From Massilia litorea (GTDB lineage Bacteria > Pseudomonadota > Gammaproteobacteria > Burkholderiales > Burkholderiaceae_D): a stretch of DNA of 64,000 nt. The stretch lies in assembly GCF_015101885.1 (NCBI RefSeq), contig NZ_CP062941.1, positions 124,001 to 188,000 of the forward strand, written 5' to 3'. The translations under genes and the position numbers were made by a program. This document shows positions 4,227 to 41,146 of the stretch, one piece after another (the stretch's first letter is position 1; every line of letters starts with the position of its first letter). The notes beneath the pieces are model-generated. The model searched no databases. It was given only the letters and a program-made list of their open reading frames with translations, and had not been told where the DNA came from.

Positions 4227-4389
4227 GTGCTTCCTTTCTCTACAAAATGCGTAAAACAATCCGCCATCATGCCAGTTGCATCGGCGTGATGCCAGTCCAC
4301 AGTGCAATTGATGGGGGTCAAAACCTGATCCGCCGGGGGCGCGAGTATCTGCTGAGCCAAGTCAATCACGACCACGCGAGGATTGCGCC

Positions 4390-5904
4390 ATGGAACAAAG
4401 AGCCCTGCTACCCGACGACATCGCCAGCTTCGAACTCCCCACCCCGAGCGCGCCCTACCGCCAGCACCGCAAGGCGTCCCAGCTGCTCGACCAGCCTGGC
4501 GCCCCGCGCGCTGCCGGCGCGCCACCTGAGTCAAGCGTACCGCTGCCCTATGCCTTCGGCGCGCGCGTGCTGATGTGGAAACAGGATCCGTCGGTACTCG
4601 AGATGGGCACGAGGAAAGCCTATCTGCCGGGCGTGGTGCTGGCCGGCCCGAGAGATGCCCGGATTGCCTCCGGCGACCCCGGCATCAGCCCGGTCGAACC
4701 GAATGCCTTCGGCGACTTCGTCACCATGCCCGACACGCCCCAGTTCGATGCCGTCCACACCTTTGCCGTGGTGCGCCAGACCCTGACCATGTACCAGCGC
4801 TCCCTGTCCTCCGCCGGCGCCGAGATGCCGCTGCCCTGGCAATGGAACAGCAGCATCGACACGGCGCCGCTGCAAATCTTCCCCTACGGCTTGCCGAACG
4901 TGATGAACGCCTTCTACAGCCGAACCCAGAACTGCCTGAAGTTCGGCGATTTCGTGCCCCCGGGGGAAAAGGAGCGCGTGTTCACCTGCCGTTCCTTCGA
5001 CATCGTCGCCCACGAAACCGGCCACGCCGTGCTCGATGGCCTCAAGCCGCATTGGCTCGAGGCCGATAATCCGCCCCAGACCGGGGGACTGCACGAATCC
5101 TTCGGCGACCTCACCGCGATCTTCCTGGCCCTGTCCCAGCTCGACCAGTGCGAGGCCGTGGTGGCCCAGACCAAGGCCCGCTTGCACGACAAGACTTTTC
5201 TGGCCGACATCGCCGAGCAGTTCGGCCTGGCGCTCGGCGGCACCACGGGCCTGAGGAATGCCGACAACGACCTGACCCTGTCCCAGGCCGGGACGCAAGT
5301 GCACGCGATCTCCCAGGTCTTTACGGGCGCCGTCTACGACATCCTGGCCGACCTGTTCGCCCTCGAGCGCAACCCGGCCTTCGAGGACGACGCCGCCGTG
5401 CTGCACCGGGTCGCCGCCTGGCTGCGCGGACTCGTATTGCGCGCCCTGGTGGCCGCACCCGACATCGCGGCCACCTATGCCGATGTCGTCAACGAAATGT
5501 TGCGCCTGGCCATAGAGGACGGCAAGCCGGCCGCCTATGCCGATGCGATCCGCCACCAGTTCACGCTCCGCGAAGTGGTCGGGGAGCCGGAAGTCACGCA
5601 AGACATGCCTGTTCCCACCGAACCCGCCAGCGCGACAACGTCCGCCACCTGCACCTTCCAACGCCTGAGCGCCGTCGTCTGCGACGCTCCCGGCGCCCAG
5701 CAGGACCGGCGCGCCTGCTGCGGCACCATGAACCTGGCCGAGTACTACAACATCGAACGCGTGCTGGACGCCGAGTCCGAGGCGCTGGCGCGCTGGTGCG
5801 CCGAGCACGGCCGCAACGGCCCGGCCGGCGAAGCGCTGCCGGTCGAGCCGCTGCCGGAACCCGGCGACCAGACCCGGGCCGCCCCGGTCCCGGTTGCGCC
5901 ATGA
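4390..5904 (+). CDS. Gluzincin-type zinc metalloprotease, M4-like, cytoplasmic
   Basis: 504-residue predicted zinc protease without signal peptide or lipobox. The zinc site is visible as H208-E-T-G-H212 (HExxH) followed by a third ligand candidate Glu236 in GGLHESFGD, the gluzincin arrangement of the M4/M36 group. The N-terminal 200 residues do not show the classical thermolysin/protealysin propeptide, and residues after about 400 are Ala/Pro-rich with two Cys clusters, so this is a divergent relative. Its stop overlaps the start of an emfourin-like gene (ATGA), implying translational coupling with its probable inhibitor. Protease class is well supported; substrate unknown. Confidence 0.75.
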   Translation: MEQRALLPDDIASFELPTPSAPYRQHRKASQLLDQPGAPRAAGAPPESSVPLPYAFGARVLMWKQDPSVLEMGTRKAYLPGVVLAGPRDARIASGDPGISPVEPNAFGDFVTMPDTPQFDAVHTFAVVRQTLTMYQRSLSSAGAEMPLPWQWNSSIDTAPLQIFPYGLPNVMNAFYSRTQNCLKFGDFVPPGEKERVFTCRSFDIVAHETGHAVLDGLKPHWLEADNPPQTGGLHESFGDLTAIFLALSQLDQCEAVVAQTKARLHDKTFLADIAEQFGLALGGTTGLRNADNDLTLSQAGTQVHAISQVFTGAVYDILADLFALERNPAFEDDAAVLHRVAAWLRGLVLRALVAAPDIAATYADVVNEMLRLAIEDGKPAAYADAIRHQFTLREVVGEPEVTQDMPVPTEPASATTSATCTFQRLSAVVCDAPGAQQDRRACCGTMNLAEYYNIERVLDAESEALARWCAEHGRNGPAGEALPVEPLPEPGDQTRAAPVPVAP

Positions 5905-27911: not shown

Positions 27912-28901
27912 TCAGAAAAAGCGTTCGCTGCAAGAATGAAGAGCCTCGGCAAATGTCCTGGCAACTGAATCCGCCACCGCAGGCCGGCCGACAATGAGGT
28001 GCAAGCTCGTCTTGTAGCTCGATCCGCTTACGATCGGCAAGATACGGACGTAATTTCCATCAAGCCACTGCTGGACCTGATACTTTGGTAGCCAGGCGTA
28101 ACCGAAACCGTGCCGTAGCACGGCAATAGCCCTGTCGAGACTGCTTACATTCCAAGGGCGCGAATAGCGGGGCAACCTGTAGGTGCCTTCGGAAGCGACA
28201 TAATCGTCCGAACCGGAAACAGCAATCTGGAACTGTGTTTTGAGGTCGTCGACCGTCAGCTCCCTCTTCAATGCGAACAGGGGATTTTCGGGGTGGGCGA
28301 CGGCAACGTGTTCGATCTGCGCCAGTTCCCTGCCCGCGAAACCGAAGGCCACCTGGGTGCTGATGGCCAGCTCGACCGTGTTGTCGTGCAGGGCTTGCTT
28401 GGCTTCGTGTGGCGTCGCTTCCTTGACACTCAATTTGATTTTCTGCGGGAATGAAGAAAGCTTGCGAAGCGCCAGCGTGAGCAGGTGGGGAGGAAAACTG
28501 GGGTCCATCGCCAGCCGGATTTCCGGCCCCCATCCCTGGCGCAGGTTCTCGGCAAGCTCCTCGAGTTCGATCGCATTTCGTACAAGATCACGAGATCTTT
28601 CCAGCAGTATCTTTCCTTCCTCGGTGATCTGCGCCTTGCGCCCCTTCAAGGCAAGAAGCGGCACGCCGAGTTGTTCCTGGAGCTTGGCGACCGCATGGCT
28701 GATCGTCGATTGCGTCACATGCAAGCTGTCGGCAGCGCCAAAAAAACCGTCGAAATCGATTACAGCGTGAAACATTTTCCATTGTTTTAGGCTAATCCGT
28801 AGATTCCGGGCTTTCAGGGAGGCGGATTCCACGCTCACCGATGGGCCTTCGCCGTCCAGTAATTTTCCGGAGGCTAATGAGCCATCCATTGGTTCGGTCA
28901 T
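27912..28901 (-). CDS. LysR-family transcriptional regulator with N-terminal extension
   Basis: About 329 residues. The winged HTH (WKMFHAVIDFDGFFGAADSL, VTQSTISHAVAKLQEQLGVPL) starts only near residue 40, so there is an unusual polar leader of roughly 35 residues rich in Ser/Glu. The effector domain (residues 130-325) is ordinary. Start at the ATG at 28901; GTG 28907 and ATG 28889 are alternatives. It lies 125 bases upstream of the chain-length gene on the same strand and may regulate the polysaccharide genes; this is inference. Confidence 0.9.
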   Translation of the reverse strand: MTEPMDGSLASGKLLDGEGPSVSVESASLKARNLRISLKQWKMFHAVIDFDGFFGAADSLHVTQSTISHAVAKLQEQLGVPLLALKGRKAQITEEGKILLERSRDLVRNAIELEELAENLRQGWGPEIRLAMDPSFPPHLLTLALRKLSSFPQKIKLSVKEATPHEAKQALHDNTVELAISTQVAFGFAGRELAQIEHVAVAHPENPLFALKRELTVDDLKTQFQIAVSGSDDYVASEGTYRLPRYSRPWNVSSLDRAIAVLRHGFGYAWLPKYQVQQWLDGNYVRILPIVSGSSYKTSLHLIVGRPAVADSVARTFAEALHSCSERFF

Positions 28902-29626
28902 CTTCACTTTTCACCCCACCAATAGTAATGAGTTAGCGATATTTCTTTCGTACACAATAAGTGGATATCTGTCCGCATGTGTAGCGGCATTCAGAATAGT
29001 CTTGGAATGAGCCGGCAAATTCTGGCGACAAGCGATTCGCGAAGAACGGTTTTATAAGCCGGTCGCCGCATTGTTCATTGATTTCGCAAGCCGCATCCGA
29101 AACTTATTATCAGCATCGGCGATAAGCGTACACAGCGGCAAGTTCTCTCAATTAATATTAATGGCATTCGAATTGCACACGATGTGACGTAATAGCGCGA
29201 AGAATACGCTTAGGTCCATTCCGTTCGCCTTATATTAAGCAAGACGAATGCTCGGGCACTGTGAACGCTCAAACTTTGGGGGAGAAACCAGGCCGATCCG
29301 CCTTGATTTTTCTGCAGATCTACGCTTTATTGGGAAAAACGCAAATAGACGATGATGCGGCGAATTTGAACACCATGCATTGCCTGGTTTGCCGGGTGGA
29401 TTCAGTCCCGGCCCGGCTTGAGGAAGGACTCGTGGCCAGGCGACGGCGGCCAGCATGTCCTCGATCGCGGCGACCGAAGCGCAAGCCAGCAATTGCTGCA
29501 CGCCGCCTGGCCGGAGGGTGTCGGCCAGGCCCAGCGGCATCGACCCGATTGCGCCGGCATTGCCGTAGACCCCGGCTGATTTATTAAACTACCTTGCACT
29601 GCAGCATTACTACACAGGAGGTTCTT
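28902..29626. other. Gap of about 725 bases with gene remnants
   Basis: Low-GC, no intact gene. 28902-29230 presumably includes the LysR gene promoter, but no convincing hexamer pair is seen. A ROK-like fragment lies at 29410-29575 on the minus strand. A sequence TGCACTGCAGCATTAC at 29595-29610 resembles the conserved block of the duplicated leader element found at 29981 and 40890. Confidence 0.5.
29410..29575 (-). pseudogene. Possible remnant of a ROK-family gene
   Basis: The minus-strand reading VYGNAGAIGSMPLG followed by GGVQQLLACASVAAIEDML resembles the C-terminal half of ROK-family sugar kinases/repressors, where GNAGAIGS-type loops are followed by a leucine-rich helix. Only about 50 residues can be traced, with a stop just upstream and unrelated sequence beyond. 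Too short for certainty. Confidence 0.3.
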
Positions 29627-29934
29627 ATGCGACTCGATATCAGTCTGGTCAGCTACATTGCCGCTTTCTGCAGCAGCGCCGCGTTCACTCCCAAGTCGTT
29701 CTCGTCTGGCGCACGCGCAGCGCCAGTGGCGTGCCGATGGGCATGTACTCCGCTTTCTGCTTTGGCGTCTTCCTGTAGCTGTGCTATGGCATTGCGATCC
29801 AGGATTGGCCCATTGCCATCAACAATGCGATCACGCTGGTACTGGCCTCCAGCGTGCTGGTCATGAAATGGCGCTTCAAACGCAGTGGCGTCAAGGATGA
29901 GCCTGCAAGCTCAGGGAGACATTCCGGCGGCTGA
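29627..29934 (+). pseudogene. Broken SemiSWEET-type sugar transporter gene
   Basis: The ATG at 29627 with a strong CACAGGAGG site opens MRLDISLVSYIAAFCSSAAF, the first helix of a SemiSWEET (MtN3/PQ-loop) protein. At about 29690 a one-base loss shifts the frame; the family sequence resumes in the next frame as VLVWRTRSASGVPMGMYSAF and continues to GIAIQDWPIAINNAI and VLVMKWRFKR, ending at TGA 29932-29934. An in-frame TAG at 29776-29778 replaces the expected Trp codon in FLWLCYG. Two independent lesions make it a pseudogene, of about 100 residues when restored. Confidence 0.85.
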
Positions 29935-29980
29935 TAACGCAGGCTTGGCGTCCTGACAAATATATGGATTACTTATCGTC

Positions 29981-30052
29981 GACATCACGAACTGAAAGTA
30001 TATTTATGGCCCCAAGGCATTTATACTGCACCGCAACATCACAGTATTCATC
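29981..30052 (+). promoter_or_regulatory. Duplicated promoter-leader element, copy 1
   Basis: 72-nt segment aligning without gaps to 40890-40961, with about 55 identical positions. An upstream block (around AAAGTATATTTATG) and a 24-base identical block starting TATACTGCACCGCAACATC flank a freely varying 11-base stretch. That pattern fits a promoter whose spacer is unconstrained: TATACT as -10 (30022-30027) and a conserved initial transcribed region. It ends 12 bases before the start of an 87-residue ORF. Confidence 0.75.
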
Positions 30053-30064
30053 TTGGAGCGACAC

Positions 30065-30328
30065 ATGAACGCAGCAACGATCACCCAGGCGCAGGAACAA
30101 GGGCTGCGCCACCAATCCACCGGCCTGTTCGCGACCATTCGCAGCTTTTCGGAGCAGCTCTTTGTTGCGCACGGCGGCTGGCTGGCCGCCCGCAAGGAAC
30201 GCGCACAACGCGCTTCGTACGCCGTCGCCGAACGTGCAGGCCGCGCCGAACTGTTCGCGATGGCGGCCGATGCCGAAAAGCATTCGCCGAACCTGGCCGC
30301 AGAACTGCGCTGGATGGCAAACCGGTAA
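30065..30328 (+). CDS. Small hypothetical protein (87 aa) behind the duplicated leader
   Basis: 87-residue Ala/Arg-rich protein, probably helical and soluble (LFATIRSFSEQLFVAHGGWLAA, then AERAGRAELFAMAADAEKH). No family recognised. ATG at 30065 follows TTGGAGCGACAC. It is preceded by a copy of the 72-nt promoter-leader element also found before a 35-residue ORF at 40974. Convergent with the nitrate reductase gene. A stretch of imperfect AGCAGTA-like repeats (about 30328-30375) follows the stop. Confidence 0.7.
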   Translation: MNAATITQAQEQGLRHQSTGLFATIRSFSEQLFVAHGGWLAARKERAQRASYAVAERAGRAELFAMAADAEKHSPNLAAELRWMANR

Positions 30329-30481
30329 GCAGCAAGCAGTAAGCAGCAGGTAGTGAGTAGTAATTAGCAGGTAACAGCGCGCGCCCCGGCTTTCGCCGCC
30401 GCAAACGGCAGCCCGGGCGCAAACCTCCCTCCTCCGCCCGGGCCGTCGGCGCCCGCCACGCCCGGGCCGCACTTCTTTCCT

Positions 30482-33196
30482 CTATTGCGCGGCCTCCTCG
30501 CCGCAGCTGGCCAGCGCCAGCAGCTTGCCGATCTCCGGCACGCAGGATCCGCAATTGCCGCCCGCCCTGACGCAAGCCGTCACCTGCGCCGTCGTCTCGA
30601 GACGGTGCGTGCGGATCGCCGCGCAGATCGTATTGCGCCCGACGCCGAAGCAGGAGCACACCGTCGGACCGGCGTCCGGGCCCTGTTGCGGCGCCCGTCC
30701 TGCCAGCAAGGTAGCGCGATCGAGCGCCCCCAGGGATTCACGCGCGAACAGGCCGGCCAGCCAGTCGCGCGCCGGCAGCTGCGGGCGGCGCGCAACAAAC
30801 ACGCAGGCCTGCAGCCTTCCGTCGACCAGATACGCCGCGCGGTAGGCGCCGGCACTGCCGTCTTCGTAGTCGATCCAGTCGGCTTCCCCATCGGCCGCCA
30901 ACAGCGCGCGCGCCCAATCGGCGCCGACCGGTCCCCGTCCCCCCATCTCGTAGCGCACGAAACCGTCCCCCTGGATACGGGTCCAGTTGGCGATGCTGTC
31001 GAGCGACAGCGCTTTCCGGCTCAGCACGAAGGCATGCCACTCGACCACGAAGGGTTCGATGCGCACCGGCGTATGCTTGAATTCCGGTTCGCCCGAGACC
31101 GGATCGACCGCCGGATTGACCAGCGCGCCGACGCGGGCGTCGGACGCCGTCTGGCCGCTCCAGTGGATCGGCACGAACACGCTGCCGCGGGCGATGCCGC
31201 CGCCGTGCGTGACGCGCGCCACCATCGCGCCCCAGCGGCTGGTAACGCGTGCCAGCTCGCCTTCGCGCACGCCGCACAGCAAGGCGTCGTTCGGATGCAG
31301 GTCGATCAACGGTTCCGGCGCGTGGTTCGCCAGGCGCGGCGACTTGCCGGTGCGCGTCATCGTATGCCACTGGTCGCGCATGCGTCCGGTGTTCAGCGCC
31401 AGCGGAAATTCGTCGTCGAGCGCGTGCACCGGGAGCCGCGGGGCGGTGGCGACGAAGCGCGCCTTGCCGCTCGCGTGGGCGAAGCGGCCGTCGGCGAACA
31501 GGCGCGCCGTCGCCTGCAGCGTGCCGTCCGCAGCGCGCAGCACCGGCCACTGGATCGGCTCGAGCGCATCGTAATCCTGGCGGCGCATGCCGCTCATGCC
31601 CGAGATGTCGAACACGCGGCGGCCAGCGCCGCCCTCGCCATTGCGCCAGCCCGACAAGCGCGCGTGCTCGTCGAAAATCGCGTGCGCGTCCTCGTAATCG
31701 AAGCCGCTGAAACCCATGCGCCGCGCGACTTCGCACAGCGCCCACCAGTCGGCACGCGCTTCGCCCGGGGCCGGAAGAAAGGCGCGCTGGCGCGAGATGC
31801 AGCGCTCGGAGTTGGTCACCGTGCCGTCCTTTTCTCCCCAACCCAGGGCCGGCAGCAGCACGTCGGCATGGGTGGTGGTATCGGTGGCGCCCACGATATC
31901 GCTGACCACCACCAGCTCGCATTTTTCCAATGCGCGCCGCACCTGGTCGGCGTCGGGCAGGCTGACCAGCGGATTGGTGGCGATGATCCACACCGCCTTG
32001 ACGCTACCCTCCTCCACCGCGCGGAACAGGTCGACCGCTTTCAGGCCGGGTTTATCGGCGATCCGCGGCGCCTCCCAGAACGCGCGCAGGGCGTCGCGCT
32101 GCAGCGGATTGTCGAGGTCCATGTGGGCGGCCAGCATGTTGGCCAGCCCCCCGACTTCGCGCCCGCCCATCGCGTTCGGCTGACCGGTCAGCGAGAACGG
32201 CCCCATGCCGGGATGGCCGATGCGGCCGGTGAGCAGGTGGCAGTTGATGATTGCATTGACCTTGTCCGTGCCGCTCGAGGACTGATTGACACCCTGCGAA
32301 TAGGCGCTGACGACCTTCCTGGTCGCGGCGAAGCCCTCGTAGAAGGCCAGCAGCTTCGCCGGGTCGACGCGGCAGATGCGCGCGACCTGCGCCGGGTCGC
32401 CGCAATCGGCGTCGGCAGTCGCCAGCGCCATGTCGAGCCCTTCGGTATGCGCCGCCACGAAGGCCGAATCCTTGACCCCATGGCGTGCCAGATAGCTGAG
32501 CAGGCCGTTGAACAGCCAGACGTCCGTTCCCGGTTTGACCGGCAGGTGCAGGTCGGCCAGTTCGCAGGTGGCGGTGCGGCGCGGATCGATCGCCACGACC
32601 TGCAGCGATGGCCGCGCCTCCTTTGCCTTCAGGATGCGCTGGAACAGGGTCGGATGACACCAGGCCGTGTTCGAACCGACCAGCACGATCATGTCCGCCA
32701 GCTCGAAGTCTTCGTAGGCACCCGGCACCAGGTCTTCGCCGAAGGCGCGCTTGTGGCCGGCCACGCTGGAGGACATGCACAGGCGCGAATTGGTGTCGAT
32801 GTTCGCGCTGCCGACATAGCCCTTCATGAATTTATTCGCGACGTAATAATCCTCGGTCAGCAGCTGGCCGGAGACGTAGAGCGCGACCGCATCCGGCCCA
32901 TGCTCGGCGATGATGGAGGCGAAGCCGCCGGCCACGCGTTCGAGCGCTTCGTCCCAGCCGGCCCGGCGCATGGAACCGTTTTCGCGCACCTGTGGGTACA
33001 GCAGGCGCCCGTCCAGGACCAGGGTTTCGCCGAGCGCCGCGCCTTTCACGCACAGGCGCCCCTTGTTGGCGGCATGCGCGGTGTCGCCGGCGATGATCGG
33101 AATGGTGCCGGGTTTGACGGTGGCGCTCACGCCGCAGCCGACGCCGCAATATGGACAGGTGGTGCGCACGGTCTGCACGGGAAGTGACATGTCCAT
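30482..33196 (-). CDS. nasA: Assimilatory nitrate reductase, catalytic subunit
   Basis: 904-residue molybdopterin (bis-MGD) oxidoreductase reducing nitrate to nitrite in the cytoplasm. The N-terminal [4Fe-4S] ligands are Cys14, Cys17, Cys21 and Cys49. Later parts show the molybdopterin fold (NTGRMRDQWHTMTRTG) and the dinucleotide-binding C-terminal domain. The last 60 residues form a BFD-like [2Fe-2S] domain (VCSCFGVGRN ... GGNCGSCVPEI), present in Klebsiella-type NasA. No Tat signal. Start at 33196 follows AAGGAAACACC. Last gene of the nitrate operon, 14 bases after the FAD reductase gene. Confidence 0.95.
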   Translation of the reverse strand: MDMSLPVQTVRTTCPYCGVGCGVSATVKPGTIPIIAGDTAHAANKGRLCVKGAALGETLVLDGRLLYPQVRENGSMRRAGWDEALERVAGGFASIIAEHGPDAVALYVSGQLLTEDYYVANKFMKGYVGSANIDTNSRLCMSSSVAGHKRAFGEDLVPGAYEDFELADMIVLVGSNTAWCHPTLFQRILKAKEARPSLQVVAIDPRRTATCELADLHLPVKPGTDVWLFNGLLSYLARHGVKDSAFVAAHTEGLDMALATADADCGDPAQVARICRVDPAKLLAFYEGFAATRKVVSAYSQGVNQSSSGTDKVNAIINCHLLTGRIGHPGMGPFSLTGQPNAMGGREVGGLANMLAAHMDLDNPLQRDALRAFWEAPRIADKPGLKAVDLFRAVEEGSVKAVWIIATNPLVSLPDADQVRRALEKCELVVVSDIVGATDTTTHADVLLPALGWGEKDGTVTNSERCISRQRAFLPAPGEARADWWALCEVARRMGFSGFDYEDAHAIFDEHARLSGWRNGEGGAGRRVFDISGMSGMRRQDYDALEPIQWPVLRAADGTLQATARLFADGRFAHASGKARFVATAPRLPVHALDDEFPLALNTGRMRDQWHTMTRTGKSPRLANHAPEPLIDLHPNDALLCGVREGELARVTSRWGAMVARVTHGGGIARGSVFVPIHWSGQTASDARVGALVNPAVDPVSGEPEFKHTPVRIEPFVVEWHAFVLSRKALSLDSIANWTRIQGDGFVRYEMGGRGPVGADWARALLAADGEADWIDYEDGSAGAYRAAYLVDGRLQACVFVARRPQLPARDWLAGLFARESLGALDRATLLAGRAPQQGPDAGPTVCSCFGVGRNTICAAIRTHRLETTAQVTACVRAGGNCGSCVPEIGKLLALASCGEEAAQ

Positions 33197-33210
33197 GGTG
33201 TTTCCTTTTT

Positions 33211-34437
33211 CTAGGTGGCGGCGCACAGCGCCTGCCCGAACAACAGGCGGTCGCGGAAGCTCGACACGTCGGCACCGCGCTGGATCAGGTCGAAATACCA
33301 GGGGCCGTCGCCGACGTCGCCCACCAGCACGGCCCCGGTCACGCGCCCGCCTTCGAGCACGAGGCGTTTATAGATGCCCGAGGTACGGTCGCGCAGGATC
33401 AGCTCTTCGCTGCCGGCGCCCCCAAGAATATCTCCGGCCGAGTACAGGTCGATGCCGGTGACCTTCAGCTTGGTCGCGGTGGCGGCCTGCACATAGCGGC
33501 GATGTCCGGCGCCGGCCAGGTGGGCGGCGCAGACCCGCGCCTGCTCCCAGACCGGGGCGACCAGGCCGAAGGTGGCGCGCCGGTGCTGCACGCATTCGCC
33601 GACGGCGTAGATGCGCGGGTCAAAGGTCTGCAGCGTGTCGTCGACGACGATGGCGCGTTCGCAATGCAGGCCCGCCTCGCGTCCCAGCGCCACGTTCGGC
33701 CGCACGCCGGCGGCCATCACGACCAGGTCGGCCGGGAGTACGCTGCCGTCGGCGAAGTGCACCGCCTCGACCTTGCCCTCGCCGGTGATGGCGCTGGTCT
33801 GGGCCGCGAGCACGATGCGCAGGCCGTCGCGTTCCAGCGTTTCCTTGAGCAGGCGGCCCGCTTCGCCGTCGAGCTGCTGGTTCATCAGGCTGGTGGCCAC
33901 ATGGACGACGGTGACGTCCATCCCGCGCCGCATCAAAGCATGCGCCGCTTCCAGCCCGAGCAGGCCGCCGCCGATGACGACCGCGCGTCCTCCCTGGCGG
34001 GCAGCGGCCAGCATGGTATCGACATCGTGCAGGTCGCGAAAGCCGACCACGCCGGGCAGCGTATTGCCGGGAATGGGCAACACGAAAGGCGTCGAGCCGG
34101 TCGCCAGCAGCAGCCGGTCATATGGCGCTTCCAGGCCGGAACGCGCGACCACGACCCGGCGCTTGCGGTCGATGCGCACGACCGGATCGCCCGCATGCAG
34201 GGTGATGCCGTGTTCCGCATACCAGGCGCGCGGATGGAGCATGATCTCGTCGACGTTCTTGTCGCCCGCCAGCAGCGGGGAAAGCAGCACGCGGTTGTAG
34301 TTCCCGTGCGGCTCGGCACCGAAGACGGTGATCTGGTACAGGTCGGGCGCGAGCTTCAGCAGTTCCTCGACCGTGCGCATGCCGGCCATGCCGTTGCCGA
34401 TGAGGACTAAGCGGGCGCTTTTCCGCTCCGTATTCAT
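33211..34437 (-). CDS. FAD-dependent NAD(P)H reductase partner of nitrate reductase (NasC/NirB-N-like)
   Basis: 408-residue flavoprotein equivalent to the N-terminal half of NirB: FAD motif LVLIGNGMAGMRTVEEL near residue 9, EPHGNYNRVLLSPLLAG, second dinucleotide motif AVVIGGGLLGLEAAH, and AVGECVQHR. It lacks BFD and siroheme domains. In Klebsiella a similar stand-alone protein passes electrons to the assimilatory nitrate reductase; its position directly before nasA supports that role. Its ATG overlaps the nirD stop (ATGA), implying translational coupling. Confidence 0.9.
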   Translation of the reverse strand: MNTERKSARLVLIGNGMAGMRTVEELLKLAPDLYQITVFGAEPHGNYNRVLLSPLLAGDKNVDEIMLHPRAWYAEHGITLHAGDPVVRIDRKRRVVVARSGLEAPYDRLLLATGSTPFVLPIPGNTLPGVVGFRDLHDVDTMLAAARQGGRAVVIGGGLLGLEAAHALMRRGMDVTVVHVATSLMNQQLDGEAGRLLKETLERDGLRIVLAAQTSAITGEGKVEAVHFADGSVLPADLVVMAAGVRPNVALGREAGLHCERAIVVDDTLQTFDPRIYAVGECVQHRRATFGLVAPVWEQARVCAAHLAGAGHRRYVQAATATKLKVTGIDLYSAGDILGGAGSEELILRDRTSGIYKRLVLEGGRVTGAVLVGDVGDGPWYFDLIQRGADVSSFRDRLLFGQALCAAT

Positions 34438-34784
34438 GCGGCTACCCACACGGTGCCGTTCTCGACCCGCACCGGAAAGCTGCTCACCGAATGCGCCGGC
34501 GCTTCCAGGCATTCGCCCGTCTGCAAATCGAAATGGTGCTTGTAGATCGGCGAAGCAACGACGATGCGCTCGCCGATGCTGCCCACCAGGCCGCGCGAGA
34601 GCACGGCCGCGTTGGCGTTCGGGTCGTAGTTATCGATCGCGAACAGGCTTTCCTCGCCGACGCGGAAGACGGCGACCTGGCGCCCGTTGAGCAAGGCGCA
34701 AACGCCGGTGTCGGGGACGATCTCGTCGAAGGCGCAGACGGCGTTCCAGTTGTGAAGTTGGCTCAGTTGCATATCCCGGTGCAT
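34434..34784 (-). CDS. nirD: Nitrite reductase small subunit
   Basis: 116-residue Rieske-fold protein partner of NirB. The fold is recognisable (VFRVGEESLFAIDNYDPNA, IYKHHFDLQTGECLE) but the Cys/His cluster ligands of true Rieske proteins are not all present, as is usual for NirD. The ATG at 34784 has an ideal AAGGAG. It starts 10 bases after nirB and overlaps the next gene by 4 bases. Confidence 0.95.
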   Translation of the reverse strand: MHRDMQLSQLHNWNAVCAFDEIVPDTGVCALLNGRQVAVFRVGEESLFAIDNYDPNANAAVLSRGLVGSIGERIVVASPIYKHHFDLQTGECLEAPAHSVSSFPVRVENGTVWVAA

Positions 34785-34794
34785 GGCAGGCTCC

Positions 34795-37320
34795 TTAGTT
34801 GACGACCGCGATCGGAATCGTGCGGCGGCGTTCTTCGATGGTGGCCGGGCGAACCTGGCCGCGTTCCGGCATGAAGACGACGTTCTCGTCCTGCGCCGGG
34901 CTGTTGACGAAATGGCGGAAGCGCTTGCGTACTTCCGGATCCTCGACCGCGTTCTTCCACTCGCAGGCATAGGTGTCGACCACCGCCTGCATGTCGGCCT
35001 CCAGCTCGGCGCCAATGCCCAGCTTGTCCTCGACCACGACCTGCTTCAGGTAATCGAGCCCGCCTTCGAGGTTCTCGCGCCAGGTGCTGGTGCGCTGCAG
35101 GCGGTCGGCGGTGCGCACGTAGAACATCAGGAAGCGGTCCACCAGCTTCACGACCGTCGCCTCGTCCAGGTTCGATGCGATCAGTTCGGCGTGGCGCGGC
35201 TTCATGCCGCCGTTGCCGCACACGTACAGGTTCCAGCCCTTGTCGGTGGCGATCAGGCCGACGTCCTTGCCCTGCGCCTCGGCGCATTCGCGGGTGCAGC
35301 CGGAGACCCCGAATTTCACTTTATGCGGCGTGCGCAAGCCCTTGTAGCGGTTCTCCAGCGCGATCGCGAAGCCCGCGCTGTCGCCCACGCCGTAGCGGCA
35401 CCAGGTCGAGCCGACGCAGGATTTCACGGTTCGTAGCGACTTGCCGTAGGCGTGGCCGGATTCGAAGCCGGCGGCGATCAGCTCTTCCCAGATCGGCGGC
35501 AGCTGGTCCACGCGCGCGCCGAACAGGTCGACTCGCTGGCCGCCCGTGATCTTGGTGTACAGGCCGTATTTTTTGGCGATCATGCCGACCGCGATCAGGC
35601 CGTCGGCCGTGACCTCGCCGCCCGGCATGCGCGGCACCACGGAATAAGTGCCGTCCTTCTGGATATTCCCGAGGAAGTAGTCGTTCGAATCCTGGAGGCT
35701 GGCGTGCTCCGGTTTCAATACGAAATCGTTCCAGGTCGAGGCCAGGATGTTCGCCGCTACCGGCTTGCAGACGTCGCAGCCCAGGCCCTTGCCGTGTTTG
35801 GCGAGCAGCTCGCCGAAGCTCTTGACGCGGCCGACGCGCACCAGGTGGTGCAGTTCCTGGCGCGAGTGGTCGAAGTGTTCGCACAGCGCGCGGCTGACGG
35901 TCACGCCCTGCTTGGCCAGTTCGGCGTTCAGCACCTGGGTCACCAGCGGCACGCAGCCGCCGCAGGCCGTGCCGGCGGTGGTGCACTTCTTCAGCGCACC
36001 GATGCTCGCCGCGCCATCGCGCACAGCCGCGCACAGGCTGCCTTTCGAGACGTCGTTGCAGGAGCAGATCTGGGCCGACTCCGGCAAGGCGTCGACGCCG
36101 AGTCCCTTCTTCGGCGCGCCGCCCGACTGCGGCAAGATCAGGCTCTCCGGCGCTTCCGGCAGTTCGATGCCGTTCAAGGCCATCTGCAACAGCGTGCCGT
36201 ATTCCGCGGCATCGCCGACCAGCACCGCGCCCAGCAAGCGCTTGCCGCATTCGCTCACCACCAGCTTTTTATAGGTCTGGCGCCGCTCATCCAGGTACTG
36301 GACGCTGCGGCTGCCGCTCGTTGCGCCATGGGCGTCGCCGATGCTGGCCACGTCCACGCCCATCAGTTTCAGCTTGGTGCTGAGGTCCGCGCCGGCAAAG
36401 CCGCCGGGGGCGCCGAGCACGTGGCGCGCGGCGGTGCGCGCCATGTCGTAGCCCGGCGCGACCAGGCCGAACAGCTGGCCGCGCCAGGCTGCGCATTCGC
36501 CGACGGCGTAGATGTCCGGATCGGAAGTGAGGCAGTCGTCGTCGACGGCGACGCCGCCGCGCGGGCCCAGCGTCAGCCCGCAGGCGCGGGCCAGCTCGTC
36601 GCGTGGGCGAATACCGGCCGAGAACACGATCATGTCGGTGTCGAGGTGGGAGCCATCGGCGAACTGCATGCGGTGGGTACCTGCTTCGCCATCGACGATC
36701 TCCAGCGTGTTCTTGCCGGTGTGGACGGTGACGCCCAGTTCTTCGATGCGGGTACGCAGTACGCGTGCGCCGTGGTCGTCCACCTGCACCGCCATCAGGC
36801 GCGGCGCGAATTCGACCACGTGCGCTTCCAGGCCGAGGTCGCGCAGCGCCTTCGCGCATTCCAGGCCGAGCAGGCCGCCGCCGACGACGACGCCGGTGCG
36901 CGCGCGTGCGCCGCATTCGCGCATCGCTTCCAGGTCTTCGATCGTGCGGTAGACAAAACAGTCGGCGCGTTCGCGGCCCGGCACCGGCGGCACGAAGGAA
37001 GAGGAACCGGTGGCCAGTACCAGCTTGTCGTAGGCGAGCACTGCGCCATCGGCCAGCGTCACCGTGCGCGCGCCGCGGTCGATGGCGACGACCTTGGCGT
37101 TCAGTTTCAGGTCGAGGTTGGTGCGCTCGAAAAAGCCCGGCGCAACCAGCGACAGGTCTTGCGCCGTTTTCCCGGCGAAGAATTCGGACAGGTGTACGCG
37201 GTCGTAGGCCGGGCGCGGCTCTTCGCCGAGCACCGTGATGTGGATGTGCGGCGCGGCGGCGGCCAGCGACTCGACGAATTTGTGGCCGACCATGCCGTGG
37301 CCGATGACGATGATGTTCAT
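34795..37320 (-). CDS. nirB: Nitrite reductase [NAD(P)H] large subunit
   Basis: 841-residue siroheme nitrite reductase converting nitrite to ammonium. Domains in order: FAD/NAD(P) pyridine nucleotide reductase (VIGHGMVGHKFVESL at residue 4, GGGLLGLECAKALRDLG), BFD-like [2Fe-2S] (CSCNDVSKGSLC ... CGGCVPLV), ferredoxin-like half domain, and siroheme/[4Fe-4S] domain with SCVGSTWCRYG and SGCTRECAEAQG supplying the four cysteines. Full length. It begins 21 bases after the transporter gene. Confidence 0.98.
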   Translation of the reverse strand: MNIIVIGHGMVGHKFVESLAAAAPHIHITVLGEEPRPAYDRVHLSEFFAGKTAQDLSLVAPGFFERTNLDLKLNAKVVAIDRGARTVTLADGAVLAYDKLVLATGSSSFVPPVPGRERADCFVYRTIEDLEAMRECGARARTGVVVGGGLLGLECAKALRDLGLEAHVVEFAPRLMAVQVDDHGARVLRTRIEELGVTVHTGKNTLEIVDGEAGTHRMQFADGSHLDTDMIVFSAGIRPRDELARACGLTLGPRGGVAVDDDCLTSDPDIYAVGECAAWRGQLFGLVAPGYDMARTAARHVLGAPGGFAGADLSTKLKLMGVDVASIGDAHGATSGSRSVQYLDERRQTYKKLVVSECGKRLLGAVLVGDAAEYGTLLQMALNGIELPEAPESLILPQSGGAPKKGLGVDALPESAQICSCNDVSKGSLCAAVRDGAASIGALKKCTTAGTACGGCVPLVTQVLNAELAKQGVTVSRALCEHFDHSRQELHHLVRVGRVKSFGELLAKHGKGLGCDVCKPVAANILASTWNDFVLKPEHASLQDSNDYFLGNIQKDGTYSVVPRMPGGEVTADGLIAVGMIAKKYGLYTKITGGQRVDLFGARVDQLPPIWEELIAAGFESGHAYGKSLRTVKSCVGSTWCRYGVGDSAGFAIALENRYKGLRTPHKVKFGVSGCTRECAEAQGKDVGLIATDKGWNLYVCGNGGMKPRHAELIASNLDEATVVKLVDRFLMFYVRTADRLQRTSTWRENLEGGLDYLKQVVVEDKLGIGAELEADMQAVVDTYACEWKNAVEDPEVRKRFRHFVNSPAQDENVVFMPERGQVRPATIEERRRTIPIAVVN

Positions 37321-37341
37321 GCTGCTCTCCTTGTTTTCCGA

Positions 37342-38634
37342 CTAAGCGCGCACCGCTGCGGCGCTTGTCGCGGTATTGCTGAAACGGGCGCCGAGTGCGC
37401 ACAGGCTGGCGACGACGACCAGGCCACCGAGGATCATCAGGGTCTGGCGCACGTCGCCCGTCCCTTTCATGAGGAAGCCGGCCAGCACCGCGCCGACATT
37501 CCCGCCGGCGCCGACGATGCCCGCCACGCCGCCGAGCGCCGTCGGTGCGACGAAGGGCACGAGCGCATAGGTCGCGCCGCAGGCCATGTGGGTAAACAGG
37601 CCGAAGCAGAGCATGGCGATGAAGGCAAACGCGACGCCGTCCGCATTCGCGAACAGCAGCAGGCCGAGGCCTTCGCCGATCATCAGCACGAACAGCACGG
37701 TGACGCGGCTGTTCAGGTCACCACGCGCCGCGCTGCGGTCCGACAGCCAGCCGCCCAGGGCGCGGGCAAACAGCGCCAGCAGGCCGAAGCTGCCGGCAGC
37801 CAGCCCGGCGGCCTTCAGCGACAGGCCGAAATGGTCGACGTAATAAATGGCGGCGATGTTGTGGATGAAGATCTCGATGCCGAAGCAGGCGCCGTAGGTG
37901 ACGAACAGCAGCCAGGCGCGGTGATTGCGGCAGGCGGCCTTGAAACTGGCCCAGCCGCCCTTGCCGCCGCCTTCGAAGTGGATGCCGGCCGCGCGCAGTT
38001 CGCTGAAGTTACCCGCCGGGCAGTCCTGGGTATGGCGCCAGTAGACGACGGCCATGACCAGCATCGCGACGCCCGGCACGATCAGGGCGATGCGCCAGCC
38101 CATGGTTTCGCTCACGCCGGCCATGACGAGGGCCGCGAGCAGCAGCGGCATCGCCGCCTGCGCCGCCCCGCCGCCGCTGTTGCCCCAGCCGGCGGCGGCC
38201 GCGTTGGCGGTGCCGACCACCTTGGGGGCGAACATCACCGAGGTGTGGTACTGGGTGATCACGAAGCTGGCGCCGACGGCGCCGATCCCGAGGCGGAACA
38301 GCAGGAAGCTTTCGTAGCTCTGGGCGAACGCGACGCCGAGTACGGGAATCGCCCCCAGGGCGAGCAAGCCGGTATAGGTCTTGCGCGGGCCGTAGCGGTC
38401 GCACAGCGGACCGACGAGCAGGCGCACCAGGATCGTAATGGCGACCGCGGCGATGTTGATGTTGGCGATTTGCGCGACCGACAGGCCGAATTCGCCTTTG
38501 ATCACCGGCATCAGCGGCGCGCAGGCGAACCAGGCGAAGAAGCAGATGAAGAACGCCATCCAGGTCAGGTGGAAGGCGCGCATCTGCGGCGTGTGGAAGT
38601 CGGTCAATCTGATGCTGTTCGCTTTGCTGGCCAT
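37342..38634 (-). CDS. narK: Nitrate/nitrite transporter (NarK/NasA type MFS)
   Basis: 430-residue major facilitator with 12 helices, nitrate-nitrite porter family. The nitrate signature regions are present: GNSGGGAAQAAMP in TM5 and GIVGAGGNVGAVLAG in TM11, plus the Arg-containing helices 2 and 8. Start at 38634 (MASKANSIRL) behind GAGGGATGAC. First structural gene of the operon, directly downstream of a roughly 130-nt leader with an ANTAR-type antitermination structure. Direction of transport (nitrate uptake) is inferred from the assimilatory context. Confidence 0.93.
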   Translation of the reverse strand: MASKANSIRLTDFHTPQMRAFHLTWMAFFICFFAWFACAPLMPVIKGEFGLSVAQIANINIAAVAITILVRLLVGPLCDRYGPRKTYTGLLALGAIPVLGVAFAQSYESFLLFRLGIGAVGASFVITQYHTSVMFAPKVVGTANAAAAGWGNSGGGAAQAAMPLLLAALVMAGVSETMGWRIALIVPGVAMLVMAVVYWRHTQDCPAGNFSELRAAGIHFEGGGKGGWASFKAACRNHRAWLLFVTYGACFGIEIFIHNIAAIYYVDHFGLSLKAAGLAAGSFGLLALFARALGGWLSDRSAARGDLNSRVTVLFVLMIGEGLGLLLFANADGVAFAFIAMLCFGLFTHMACGATYALVPFVAPTALGGVAGIVGAGGNVGAVLAGFLMKGTGDVRQTLMILGGLVVVASLCALGARFSNTATSAAAVRA

Positions 38635-38650
38635 GTCATCCCTCTTTTGA

Positions 38651-38699
38651 AAACAAAAAGGCGTCCGCGTCCCAGGGTGGTACCTGGAAGGCGGACGCC
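38651..38699 (-). terminator. Leader terminator of the nitrate assimilation operon
   Basis: Minus-strand stem GGCGTCCGC (38699-38691) with GCGGACGCC (38668-38660), enclosing an inner CCAGG/CCTGG hairpin, followed by TTTTTGTTTT (38659-38650). It ends 16 bases before the transporter start. Its 5' arm overlaps the 3' arm of the second hexaloop hairpin, so the two structures are mutually exclusive. Confidence 0.88.
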
Positions 38700-38733
38700 G
38701 TTGTCCGGAATGCCGGTCCAGCAGTGGACCGGC
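38692..38733 (-). promoter_or_regulatory. Two-hexaloop ANTAR-target RNA (antiterminator)
   Basis: On the minus strand, hairpin 1: GCCGGTCC-ACTGCT-GGACCGGC (38733-38712); then a 4-base linker; hairpin 2: CGGAC-AACGGC-GTCCG (38707-38692). Both loops are six bases with A at position 1 and G at position 4, the signature of ANTAR-protein RNA targets. Formation of hairpin 2 blocks the downstream terminator. NasT, encoded 1.5 kb upstream, is the expected ligand. Nitrate would act through NasS. Confidence 0.88.
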
Positions 38734-38775
38734 TATGTAAATGAAGGGATCGCCGTTGATCCTGCGTTCAGTGTT

Positions 38776-38791
38776 TGCAAGAGGCGTGCCA
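38776..38791 (-). promoter_or_regulatory. Sigma-54 promoter of the nitrate assimilation operon
   Basis: Minus-strand TGGCACGCCTCTTGCA: GG at 38790-38789 and GC at 38778-38777 with the canonical 10-base separation, matching TGGCACG-N4-TTGCA exactly. Predicted start is near 38765, giving a leader of about 131 nt that contains the two hexaloop hairpins and the terminator. Suggests control by general nitrogen status (NtrC). Confidence 0.8.
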
Positions 38792-38934
38792 GCGGAGATG
38801 CGGGGCGGGTGATGCGGTCGGTCGGGAAGGGAGCGCTCTATTGCAGTGCACAATGCGCGCTAATGATGCGGAACGGCGCACTACCGGTGGTCGGTGCATC
38901 ATCGCGCCGCATGAGCATGACCCGCAGACGCGGC

Positions 38935-40119
38935 TCATGCGCTCAAGGGCTGCGGATCGCGCTGGTGGATATCGAACGAGGCCGCGTAGGCAAGCGGATC
39001 GCTCCCGTCCCACACCCGGCCATCCATCAGCGTACTGCTGCGCATGGCGGCCGACGGCAGGTCCACGCCTGCCAGCTGCGCCGCGTCGCGATACAGCTCG
39101 ACCCGGTTCACCCTGGCCGCCACGCCCAGGTAATCGGGATCCTCGCGCAGCAGGCCCCAGCGCCGCTGCTGGGTCAGGAACCACATCCCGTCCGACAGCC
39201 ACGGGAAGGTCGCCTCGCCTTCGCCGAAGAAGCGCAGGCCCGGGAAATCGGAACGGCGCGGCACCAGGCAGGCCCGCAGCAGCTCGACGTCGGCATGCAC
39301 GTAGGCCGGGCTGGCCAGCACCTCGGCGGCGGCTTCGCGGTTGGTGGTCGAAGCGTCGAGCCAGCGCGCCGTGTCGAGCAAGGCGGCGACGAGGGCGCGG
39401 CAGGCGTTCGGATGGCGCGCCACGAAATCGGCGCGCGCGCCGAGCGCCTTGCCGGGGTGGTCCGGCCAGACCTGGCCGCTGGACGCAACCAGCGCGCCGC
39501 TCGCTTCCATCACGGCGCGCCGGCTCCAGGGTTCGCCCGCGCAGAAGCCGTCCATGTGGCCGGCTTCCAGGTTGACCGCCATCTGGCTCGGGGGCACGGT
39601 GACCAGCCGGGTCTGCGCCAGCGGATCGATGCCGGCCGCCGCCAGCCAGTAGCACAGCCACATCGCGTGGTTCCCGGTCGGGAAGGTGTGGCCGAAGGTG
39701 TAGCGGCGCGGCTGCTCGCGCATCAGGGCGGCGAGACCGGCGCCATCCTGGACGCCGGCCGCCGCGATCGCCCGCGAGAGCACGATGGATTGACCGTTCT
39801 GGTTCAGGTTCATCAGCACCGCCATCTCGCGCGCGGCGCTGCCGATCCCCATCTGCAGGCCATACAGCAGGCCGTACAAGGCGTGGGCGGCATCGAGCTC
39901 GCCGTTCGTCAGGCGGTCGCGCATGCCGGACCAGGACTGCTGCCTGTCGAGCGCCAGCTTGATGCCGTACTTTTCGTCGAAGCCGAGGATCGACGCCATC
40001 ACCAGCGGCGCGCAGTCGGCAAGCGGCATGAAGCCGATGCGCAGCACTTCCTTCTCGGGCCGGTCCGACCCGGCCCCGTGGACGTTCAAGGCAGCGCCCT
40101 GGCCTGGCAAGTCAGTCAT
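38935..40119 (-). CDS. nasS: Nitrate sensor NasS (NrtA/CmpA-like, cytoplasmic)
   Basis: 394-residue protein of the nitrate/bicarbonate ABC substrate-binding family (RIGFMPLADCAPLVMASILGF, GHTFPTGNHAMWLCYWL, EAGHMDGFCAGEPW). It has no signal peptide, distinguishing the cytoplasmic sensor NasS from transporter binding proteins. In Paracoccus, Azotobacter and Pseudomonas NasS holds NasT inactive until nitrate or nitrite binds. It starts 19 bases after nasT on the same strand. Confidence 0.92.
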   Translation of the reverse strand: MTDLPGQGAALNVHGAGSDRPEKEVLRIGFMPLADCAPLVMASILGFDEKYGIKLALDRQQSWSGMRDRLTNGELDAAHALYGLLYGLQMGIGSAAREMAVLMNLNQNGQSIVLSRAIAAAGVQDGAGLAALMREQPRRYTFGHTFPTGNHAMWLCYWLAAAGIDPLAQTRLVTVPPSQMAVNLEAGHMDGFCAGEPWSRRAVMEASGALVASSGQVWPDHPGKALGARADFVARHPNACRALVAALLDTARWLDASTTNREAAAEVLASPAYVHADVELLRACLVPRRSDFPGLRFFGEGEATFPWLSDGMWFLTQQRRWGLLREDPDYLGVAARVNRVELYRDAAQLAGVDLPSAAMRSSTLMDGRVWDGSDPLAYAASFDIHQRDPQPLSA

Positions 40120-40138
40120 GCGTTTCCTTTCGCCGGAT

Positions 40139-40774
40139 CTAGCCCAGCAAGTCCTCGACGTCCAGGATACGCTGCGCGATCTCGGCCAGTCTCATGTTCT
40201 TGTTCATCGCCAGGCTGCGCAGGCGGCCGTAGGCTTCGTCTTCAAGCAGGCCGTGGCGCTTCATCAGCACACCCTTGGCGCGGTCGATCACCTTGCGCTC
40301 GGCCAGCTTCTGGCGGGTGTCGGCCAGTTCGCCCAGCAGCTTCTGTTCGCGCCTGAAGCGCGCCAGCGCCACGTCGAGGACCGGGCGCACCCGCTCGGCG
40401 CGCAGGCCGGCCACGATATAGGCCGAGACGCCGGCCGCCACCGCCGCCTCCATCGTGTCGGCGCTGTCGTCCTCGGTGAAGAGCACGATCGGGCGCCGGG
40501 CCTCGCGCGTGGCGATCACGATGTGTTCGAGCACGTCGCGCGCGTCGGACTCGCTGTCGACGATGATCAGGTCCGGCTGCAACTGGGCGATGCGTTCGGG
40601 CAGGAAGATGTCGGGCGGGAGCGAAGCGACGATATCGTAGCCCGACTCCAGCAGGCCGACGCGCAATGCTGCGCTGCGGCAGGCCTGGGCGGCCAGTTCG
40701 GCGTCGCCGGCCGGCACCTCGCCGCCGGTAACGACGACGATGCGCAGGCTGCGTGAGGGATCGGCTGGTTTCAT
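40139..40774 (-). CDS. nasT: ANTAR-domain antitermination regulator NasT
   Basis: 211-residue response-regulator-like protein: receiver-like domain (residues 10-130, LIIVDSESDARDVLEH in place of a classical phosphorylation site region) and a C-terminal ANTAR domain (residues about 150-208, AKGVLMKRHGLLEDEAYGRLR, LAEIAQRILDVEDLL). ANTAR proteins bind paired hexaloop hairpins and prevent termination; exactly such a structure lies before the transporter gene. Start at 40774 (MKPADPSRSL). First gene of the nasTS pair. Confidence 0.94.
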   Translation of the reverse strand: MKPADPSRSLRIVVVTGGEVPAGDAELAAQACRSAALRVGLLESGYDIVASLPPDIFLPERIAQLQPDLIIVDSESDARDVLEHIVIATREARRPIVLFTEDDSADTMEAAVAAGVSAYIVAGLRAERVRPVLDVALARFRREQKLLGELADTRQKLAERKVIDRAKGVLMKRHGLLEDEAYGRLRSLAMNKNMRLAEIAQRILDVEDLLG

Positions 40775-40889
40775 GCGCTTTTCGAATGCAAGAACCGCGC
40801 CATCCACGATCGGACACAAAGCAAAGGTATTCTTGGAGGAAATATCTGCCATGGAGAGCACGCAAAAGACATTCATCAAACGCATCGCC

Positions 40890-40961
40890 GGCATCACAAA
40901 CGAAAAGTTTATTTATGACTGGGTCTCACATATACTGCACCGCAACATCACAGTGTTTATC
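40890..40961 (+). promoter_or_regulatory. Duplicated promoter-leader element, copy 2
   Basis: Counterpart of 29981-30052, gap-free alignment over 72 bases. Upstream block around AAAGTTTATTTATG, variable 11-base block, then the identical 24-base block beginning TATACTGCACCGCAACATC (40931). It lies 12 bases before a 35-codon ORF and in the divergent region shared with nasT. Confidence 0.75.
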
Positions 40962-40973
40962 AGGAGATCCGCC

Positions 40974-41081
40974 ATGACCGTTCTCGAATTCGTCCCCATC
41001 GCTCTCGCCGTCCTCGCCGTTGTCGCCCGCGTCGCCATGTTCCTGCCGCGCGCGCCCAAGTCCGCGGCTCAGGCGCGCTAA
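40974..41081 (+). CDS. Small single-pass membrane protein (35 aa)
   Basis: ATG at 40974 with CAGGAG at 6-7 bases opens a 35-residue protein with one hydrophobic helix (LEFVPIALAVLAVVARVAMFL) and a basic C-terminal tail (PRAPKSAAQAR). It is followed 30 bases later by a strong terminator, so it sits in its own compact transcription unit behind the duplicated promoter-leader element. No family recognised. Could alternatively be the coding part of a regulatory RNA. Confidence 0.65.
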   Translation: MTVLEFVPIALAVLAVVARVAMFLPRAPKSAAQAR

Positions 41082-41110: not shown

Positions 41111-41146
41111 AAAGCGCGCCTGTACGTACGCAGGCGCGCTTTTTTT
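41111..41146 (+). terminator. Intrinsic terminator of the small membrane protein gene
   Basis: 12-bp stem AAAGCGCGCCTG / CAGGCGCGCTTT with 8-base loop, then a T-run. Confidence 0.93.

Follow-up and report, generated by a model that had tools for sequence, protein, structure and literature searches.

The window (64,000 nucleotides of Massilia litorea, contig NZ_CP062941.1) carries two copies of a promoter element which, judged from sequence comparison, probably represents a TATACT promoter that is activated by a LysR-type transcriptional regulator (LTTR), repressed at a palindrome, and used to drive both micro-protein genes and small RNAs (sRNAs) of the family RF02278.

A repeated promoter element in Oxalobacteraceae

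The two copies, located at 29981-30052 (copy 1) and 40890-40961 (copy 2), align without gaps and are identical at 55 of 72 positions. An ATG lies 12 bases past each block, at 30065 and 40974, respectively. Both copies share an identical 24-base block, TATACTGCACCGCAACATCACAGT; TATACT starts at 30022 in copy 1 and at 40931 in copy 2, and most of the mismatches fall in the stretch ahead of it. An earlier note on this DNA had reported the repeat and the concentration of its differences in one stretch, and both observations have been confirmed. Its left boundary was drawn too tightly, as conservation already starts at 29962 and 40871, ~20 bases before it. Each 72-base block makes up the downstream portion of a larger predicted promoter of ~80 bp.

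Besides the query itself, a BLAST search of the M. litorea genome with copy 2 returns copy 1 alone (77% identity, E 8.1e-9). Allowing up to 3 mismatches, TATACTGCACCGCAACATCACAGT was found at 29 places in 25 of the 294 genomes of the family, with no reversed-control matches among the matches listed. The profile R2, built from 43 rows that include both window copies, was run at E up to 0.5 on both strands of 436 kb (20 relative loci besides the window), and all 24 of its matches were known elements. The recurrence of the 24-mer in the family and this control rule out a chance repeat. The outcome of no further copies, which the earlier note had envisaged for a family-wide search with the 24-base block, did not occur, and its proposal of a small undescribed regulon is well supported: further copies exist in the family, and no description of the present regulon was found in a search of openly licensed papers.

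The profile R1 (E <= 0.001) detects the element across Oxalobacteraceae, in 210 of the 294 genomes of the family and in 28 of its 44 genera. Over 399 genomes of the order, R2 gave 17 positive genomes, 12 of them in Oxalobacteraceae, and the matches outside the family include weak ones in G330, G568, and G577. A pattern of 26 fixed bases run over GTDB contigs returned 81 stretches, of which 80 were analyzed. All genus-named matches belong to Massilia, Telluria, Pseudoduganella, Collimonas, Herbaspirillum, Noviherbaspirillum, Herminiimonas, or Oxalicibacterium, and five metagenome-assembled genomes carry broader labels only. These genera are Oxalobacteraceae, in which Massilia, Telluria, and Pseudoduganella belong to the "Telluria group".

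Variants of the element have also been observed. In another family of the order (G467, L290 206-298), the site, a standard-spaced -10 element, and a TTGCAACGCAACA stretch are followed by a 100-aa ORF. In the M. litorea genome, an LTTR-type site without the TATACT/palindrome part precedes a 46-aa ORF (L283 1765; C1:3378264), and L287 is alike.

Architecture of the promoter

Two alignments define the conserved positions. A1 holds 26 of the 29 places of the 24-mer, with at most a one-base shift; L004 and L027, which have no upstream part, and L010, a near repeat of L009, were left out. A3 holds 43 copies taken widely across genera; it omits L155 and L165, in which the spacer is shifted, along with some closely similar copies. 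The invariant columns of A1 are AT (6-7), AT (19-20), AT (28-29), AAA (39-41), TATACTGCA (66-74), and GCAACA (77-82). In A3, the three AT pairs are invariant in 43/43 diverged copies, in the register AT-N11-AT / N7 / AT. The -10 element and the palindrome are invariant or conserved to at least 90%, except for the NN center and A80 (35/43), and the diverged copies thus retain a TATACT -10 element as well as a palindrome, TGC-N3-GCA, that spans the -10/start.

Together, the first and second AT pairs give an inverted repeat like ATTC-N7-GAAT, of the T-N11-A type, centered near -65. The third pair (columns 28-29) opens a second half-site 7 bp on, which together with an A-rich block reaches into the -35 region, where no consensus -35 has been seen. 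A T-N11-A inverted repeat centered near -65 and a second half-site make up the LysR-type layout, and the upstream half, which the earlier note had missed, identifies the likely regulator class. The register of the half-sites also resembles that of the NodD nod box. A sigma-28 promoter (TAAAGTTT) and an OxyR site, whose half-sites are spaced alike, were weighed and rejected, the former because there is no sigma-28 -10 element and the latter because the half-sites are not ATAG/CTAT.

All features of both copies lie on the plus strand. The predicted LysR-type regulator site of copy 1 spans 29962-30008 (columns 6-52 of A1/A3, which contain the invariant AT pairs), with the first inverted repeat at 29962-29976 and the second half-site from 29984, and is matched by R2 at 29959-30046 with 57.8 bits. 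In copy 2, the predicted site spans 40871-40917, with the first inverted repeat at 40871-40885 and the second half-site from 40893 (R2 match at 40867-40954, 67.5 bits). The -10 element, TATACT in every A1 row, is located at 30022-30027 in copy 1 and, by the same alignment, at 40931-40936 in copy 2. From the spacing at RF02278, transcripts are predicted to start near 30033 and 40942. The CTGCACCGCAA palindrome over the -10/start, at 30026-30036 in copy 1 and 40935-40945 in copy 2 (A1/A3 alignments), is a possible PhaR/PhbF operator by its likeness to a published motif (PMC3206438).

A candidate LysR-type regulator

The LTTR encoded at C1:1345888-1346841, outside the window, probably controls the element. 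Its candidacy comes from 38 loci, none longer than 7 kb, around elements in 34 genomes of non-Massilia genera. In 25 of these loci, a full-length orthologous LTTR gene, 69-80% identical to the M. litorea copy, is present and in 25/25 cases is divergent to the element, with its start codon within ~310 bp. The other 13, including all loci in g4, g12, and g40, have no LTTR gene adjoining the element. In an independent set of 80 loci that includes Massilia, 21 elements have a divergent LTTR gene no more than 400 bp away, and 19 of these elements precede micro-ORFs of the FKPL type. A divergent LTTR gene is not a feature of the two window copies themselves. Ahead of the M. litorea LTTR gene, a site points away from it, 60 bp ahead of TATAGT, and is followed by a 67-aa micro-ORF of the FRPL type; this micro-ORF, divergent to the LTTR gene, is of the target type.

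The LTTR is present in 207 of 210 genomes with the element versus 54 of 84 without an R1 match (Fisher 1.7e-15, not corrected for kinship; in these counts for element, LTTR, and phaR, genomes not among the matches listed were taken as negative). The three genomes with the element and without the LTTR (G046, G213, and G284) are drafts of 75-93% completeness. The LysR gene of the window itself (27912-28907) has been rejected as a candidate: it gave a single tblastn match in 60 relative loci (L155), at 35% identity, versus 69-80% over the full length for the LTTR at 1.346 Mb.

The palindrome and PhaR

The motif of PhbF in Herbaspirillum seropedicae is TG[N]TGC[N]3GCAA (PMC3206438), and the CTGC-ANY-GCAA palindrome of the element fits its TGC-N3-GCAA core. 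The two differ in the leading TG, which reads TA in the window copies because the palindrome overlaps the -10 element. At the LTTR-locus promoters of Massilia, a similar palindrome is found just before the -10 element, e.g., TGTTGCAATGCAG followed by TATAGT, a position in keeping with a protein operator. At several sRNA promoters, the palindrome is degenerate.

The phaR gene has been found in the M. litorea genome and in 270 of 294 family genomes, including 205 of the 210 with the element. Among the 24 genomes without phaR, 5 have the element (G071, G087, G091, G131, and G243) and 19 do not (Fisher 1.1e-7, confounded by kinship and genome reduction). With guessed start codons, a clear motif lies upstream of one of the seven M. 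litorea phasin genes and the TGC-N3-GCA core only at a second; no PhaR motif was seen in the 350 bp before phaR itself, again with a guessed start codon. The sequence CTGCANYGCAA is common in the genome, with 40 matches. On this evidence, PhaR has about an even chance of being the palindrome-binding factor, and a second input from this PHB sensor is plausible.

Alternative explanations

The upstream part could instead bind an unrelated activator, making this a promoter of another class in which the LTTR gene is merely a frequent neighbor. The distance between the Massilia window copies and the LTTR gene, and the 13 other loci without one nearby, would agree with this explanation. However, the T-N11-A repeat near -65 with its second half-site is the layout of LTTR sites, and the Massilia LTTR gene keeps an adjoining site although the window targets lie elsewhere; we consider a promoter of another class unlikely. 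The earlier note had left the choice between a shared regulator and RNA-level control, in which the conserved transcribed start would act as an mRNA leader element. Conservation does run beyond the -10 element into the predicted transcript, but the conserved stretch is the palindrome, a DNA element whose like precedes the -10 element at the LTTR-locus promoters, and the sequence beyond it is poorly conserved in A3. The window leader together with the 35-aa ORF folds no better than shuffled sequences (z +1.02), and the Rfam matches in this region are all below threshold and at chance level. The shared regulator has thus been retained, and control at an RNA leader is very improbable.

The nitrate-assimilation genes of the window suggest another possible role, that of an element tied to the nas cluster or to the ANTAR regulator NasT. 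Copies are found at both ends of the minus-strand nas genes in the window (29962-40954), G223, and G251, and an ANTAR gene diverges from copy 2. By comparison, 16 of the 20 relative loci have an S9 peptidase gene close to the element, and in five of these (G113, G098, G079, G291, and G070) no match to six nas-cluster genes (NasT excluded) was found in 19 kb. Since the association with the S9 peptidase gene persists in these five loci, the nitrate genes look like bystanders. In other genera, the element adjoins the LTTR gene, and a dedicated nitrate element is hardly credible. The LTTR-activated promoter with a repressing palindrome is the reading followed below.

Micro-ORF targets

The targets are mostly uncharacterized micro-ORFs, as classified from their sequences. 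Copy 1 precedes the gene of an 87-aa micro-protein (30065-30328, plus strand) with AHGGW and C-terminal AELR motifs, for which no Pfam or NCBIfam match was found, and copy 2 precedes a 35-aa gene (40974-41081, plus strand) for a hydrophobic, single-span-like micro-protein, which is kept in G223, G251, G232, and G239. The differences by codon position are 5/3/29 for the 87-aa ORF (against G239) and 53/60/116 for the 35-aa ORF (a sum over 10 non-independent pairs), which suggests that both ORFs are translated. A terminator-like hairpin followed by T7 was read off the sequence after the 35-aa gene, at 41114-41146 on the plus strand.

As the earlier note had stated, the 87-aa and 35-aa proteins of the window do not resemble one another. 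The motif RSFS.xL..AHGGW of the 87-aa protein, however, recurs in other Massilia in peptides of 35-39 aa beside the S9 peptidase gene. The window 35-aa ORF occupies the spot where other Massilia carry these peptides.

The first ORFs of 30-180 aa after the 80 strict elements, sorted by simple motifs, comprise 30 AHGG peptides, 19 with FKPL and an AELR-like end, 13 with an AELR-like end alone, 7 LRF, 2 FKPL only, 2 FLPR peptides, and 5 others; none was found at 2 elements. In a second set of elements, a first ORF of 35-162 aa is present in 47/51 cases. Among the tested target proteins, DUF3563 (L155) and TonB_C (L135) have been recognized, and the rest gave nothing above the cut-off.

Some element loci show additional features. 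Tandem elements ~0.5-0.85 kb apart occur in L136 (G210, 4247-5329) and L135 (G133), and some of them precede a TonB_C-like secreted protein and not one of the usual micro-ORF classes. A c-di-GMP-I riboswitch (69.4 bits) is located near another element locus (L132 1011-1099, plus strand). In the window, the small gene just upstream of copy 1 (29626-29934, plus strand), which looks like one of the SemiSWEET sugar transporter type, has been disrupted by a frame change and a stop codon in frame; a TTGCACTGCAG palindrome lies ahead of it at 29594-29604.

RF02278 sRNAs

In the M. litorea genome, the R2 match at C1:5123592 leads into an RNA that scores as RF02278 with 54.8 bits (gathering score 50; fold z -4.3). 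This sRNA locus is matched in 31/31 Massilia genomes, and 26 of 30 Massilia sRNA loci, retrieved with a query that itself includes the site, have an R2 site. In an unbiased set of 30 RF02278 loci from 10 genomes, the site is found at one register just before the sRNA in 18, including all three M. litorea copies above the Rfam cut-off, and all 21 R2 matches in this set belong to an RF02278 copy. The 12 loci without the site include 3/3 drawn from G026 and 3/3 from G028. In G102 and G006, no match was found to RF02278, phaR, or the element.

In an Rfam scan of 18 element loci, 7 showed a same-strand RF02278-like RNA further downstream, with scores of 37-47 bits that fall short of the gathering score (50); in 5 of these, it lies 45-108 nt past the micro-ORF stop. 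Two more of the 18 loci have a convergent RF02278 copy above the gathering score. Between 29900 and 41400 of the window, no RF02278 covariance match was found up to E 1. After the 87-aa ORF, a strong G+C hairpin with a CCUCCCUCCUCC loop and no T-run is present at 30411-30444 on the plus strand (z -2.94); its loop recalls the anti-Shine-Dalgarno loops of RF02278, and it has no Rfam match.

RF02278 sRNAs, a family of double-hairpin (toxic) sRNAs, occur across Betaproteobacteria, and in Burkholderia cenocepacia three of the four copies share an upstream motif (PMC5688073). The B. cenocepacia sRNAs of this type are more abundant in glucose medium, and overexpression of ncS27 slowed growth; the cause of the accumulation was unknown to the authors (PMC5688073). 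Here, an LTTR-type site precedes copies of the family, and the tie to this site and to micro-ORFs is absent from the available text of that paper.

Proposed network and comparison with known systems

In the proposed network, the LTTR would bind its site at about -73 to -27 and, as its position suggests, activate the TATACT promoter. A second factor, for which the PHB-sensing PhaR/PhbF is the leading candidate, would bind the TGC-N3-GCA palindrome around the -10/start and probably repress, its position being such that it would block the -10/start. We infer these binding, activation, and repression steps, together with the PHB input and the transcript starts. The outputs would be micro-proteins and anti-Shine-Dalgarno sRNAs of the family RF02278. 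The purpose may be, speculatively, to restrain uptake and growth under carbon excess, which would fit the glucose-dependent abundance of the B. cenocepacia sRNAs and the slower growth caused by ncS27 (PMC5688073).

A candidate activator and an exact site are thereby offered for RF02278 sRNAs, and uncharacterized micro-protein genes are placed under this one switch, to which PHB may be an input. The most specific form of the proposal is tentative, and we think it somewhat doubtful: a VtlR-like betaproteobacterial two-input network in which the LTTR and PhaR jointly control micro-proteins and RF02278 sRNAs, in part through dual-function mRNAs with a micro-protein ORF followed by the sRNA in the 3' UTR. 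If true, this two-input network would couple carbon storage to translational restraint.

In Alphaproteobacteria, small-protein genes and the AbcR sRNA have one promoter motif in common, through which the LTTR VtlR activates them (PMC7486931). The network proposed here appears to work like VtlR-AbcR, with one LTTR, small proteins, an sRNA, and a shared promoter motif. In contrast, it belongs to another bacterial class and its sRNA family is RF02278 and not AbcR; it has therefore not been filed as a member, the likeness being one of working and not of orthology. Two bacterial classes would then use the same kind of circuit, consisting of one LTTR, micro-proteins, and an anti-Shine-Dalgarno sRNA.

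Among named LTTRs, BsrA (PA2121) of Pseudomonas is the nearest family, and it binds T-N11-A sites (PMC8407307). The BsrA model (NF050187) is the best NCBIfam match of the candidate LTTR at 222 bits, far under the curated cut-off of 480, and BsrA has other targets and many binding sites according to the available text (PMC8407307). The LeuO model (NF007063) is matched with 154 bits, under its curated cut-off of 262. The closest PDB structures are those of the DntR/NtdR-type regulators, 1uth and 5ae4, with E about 2e-48.
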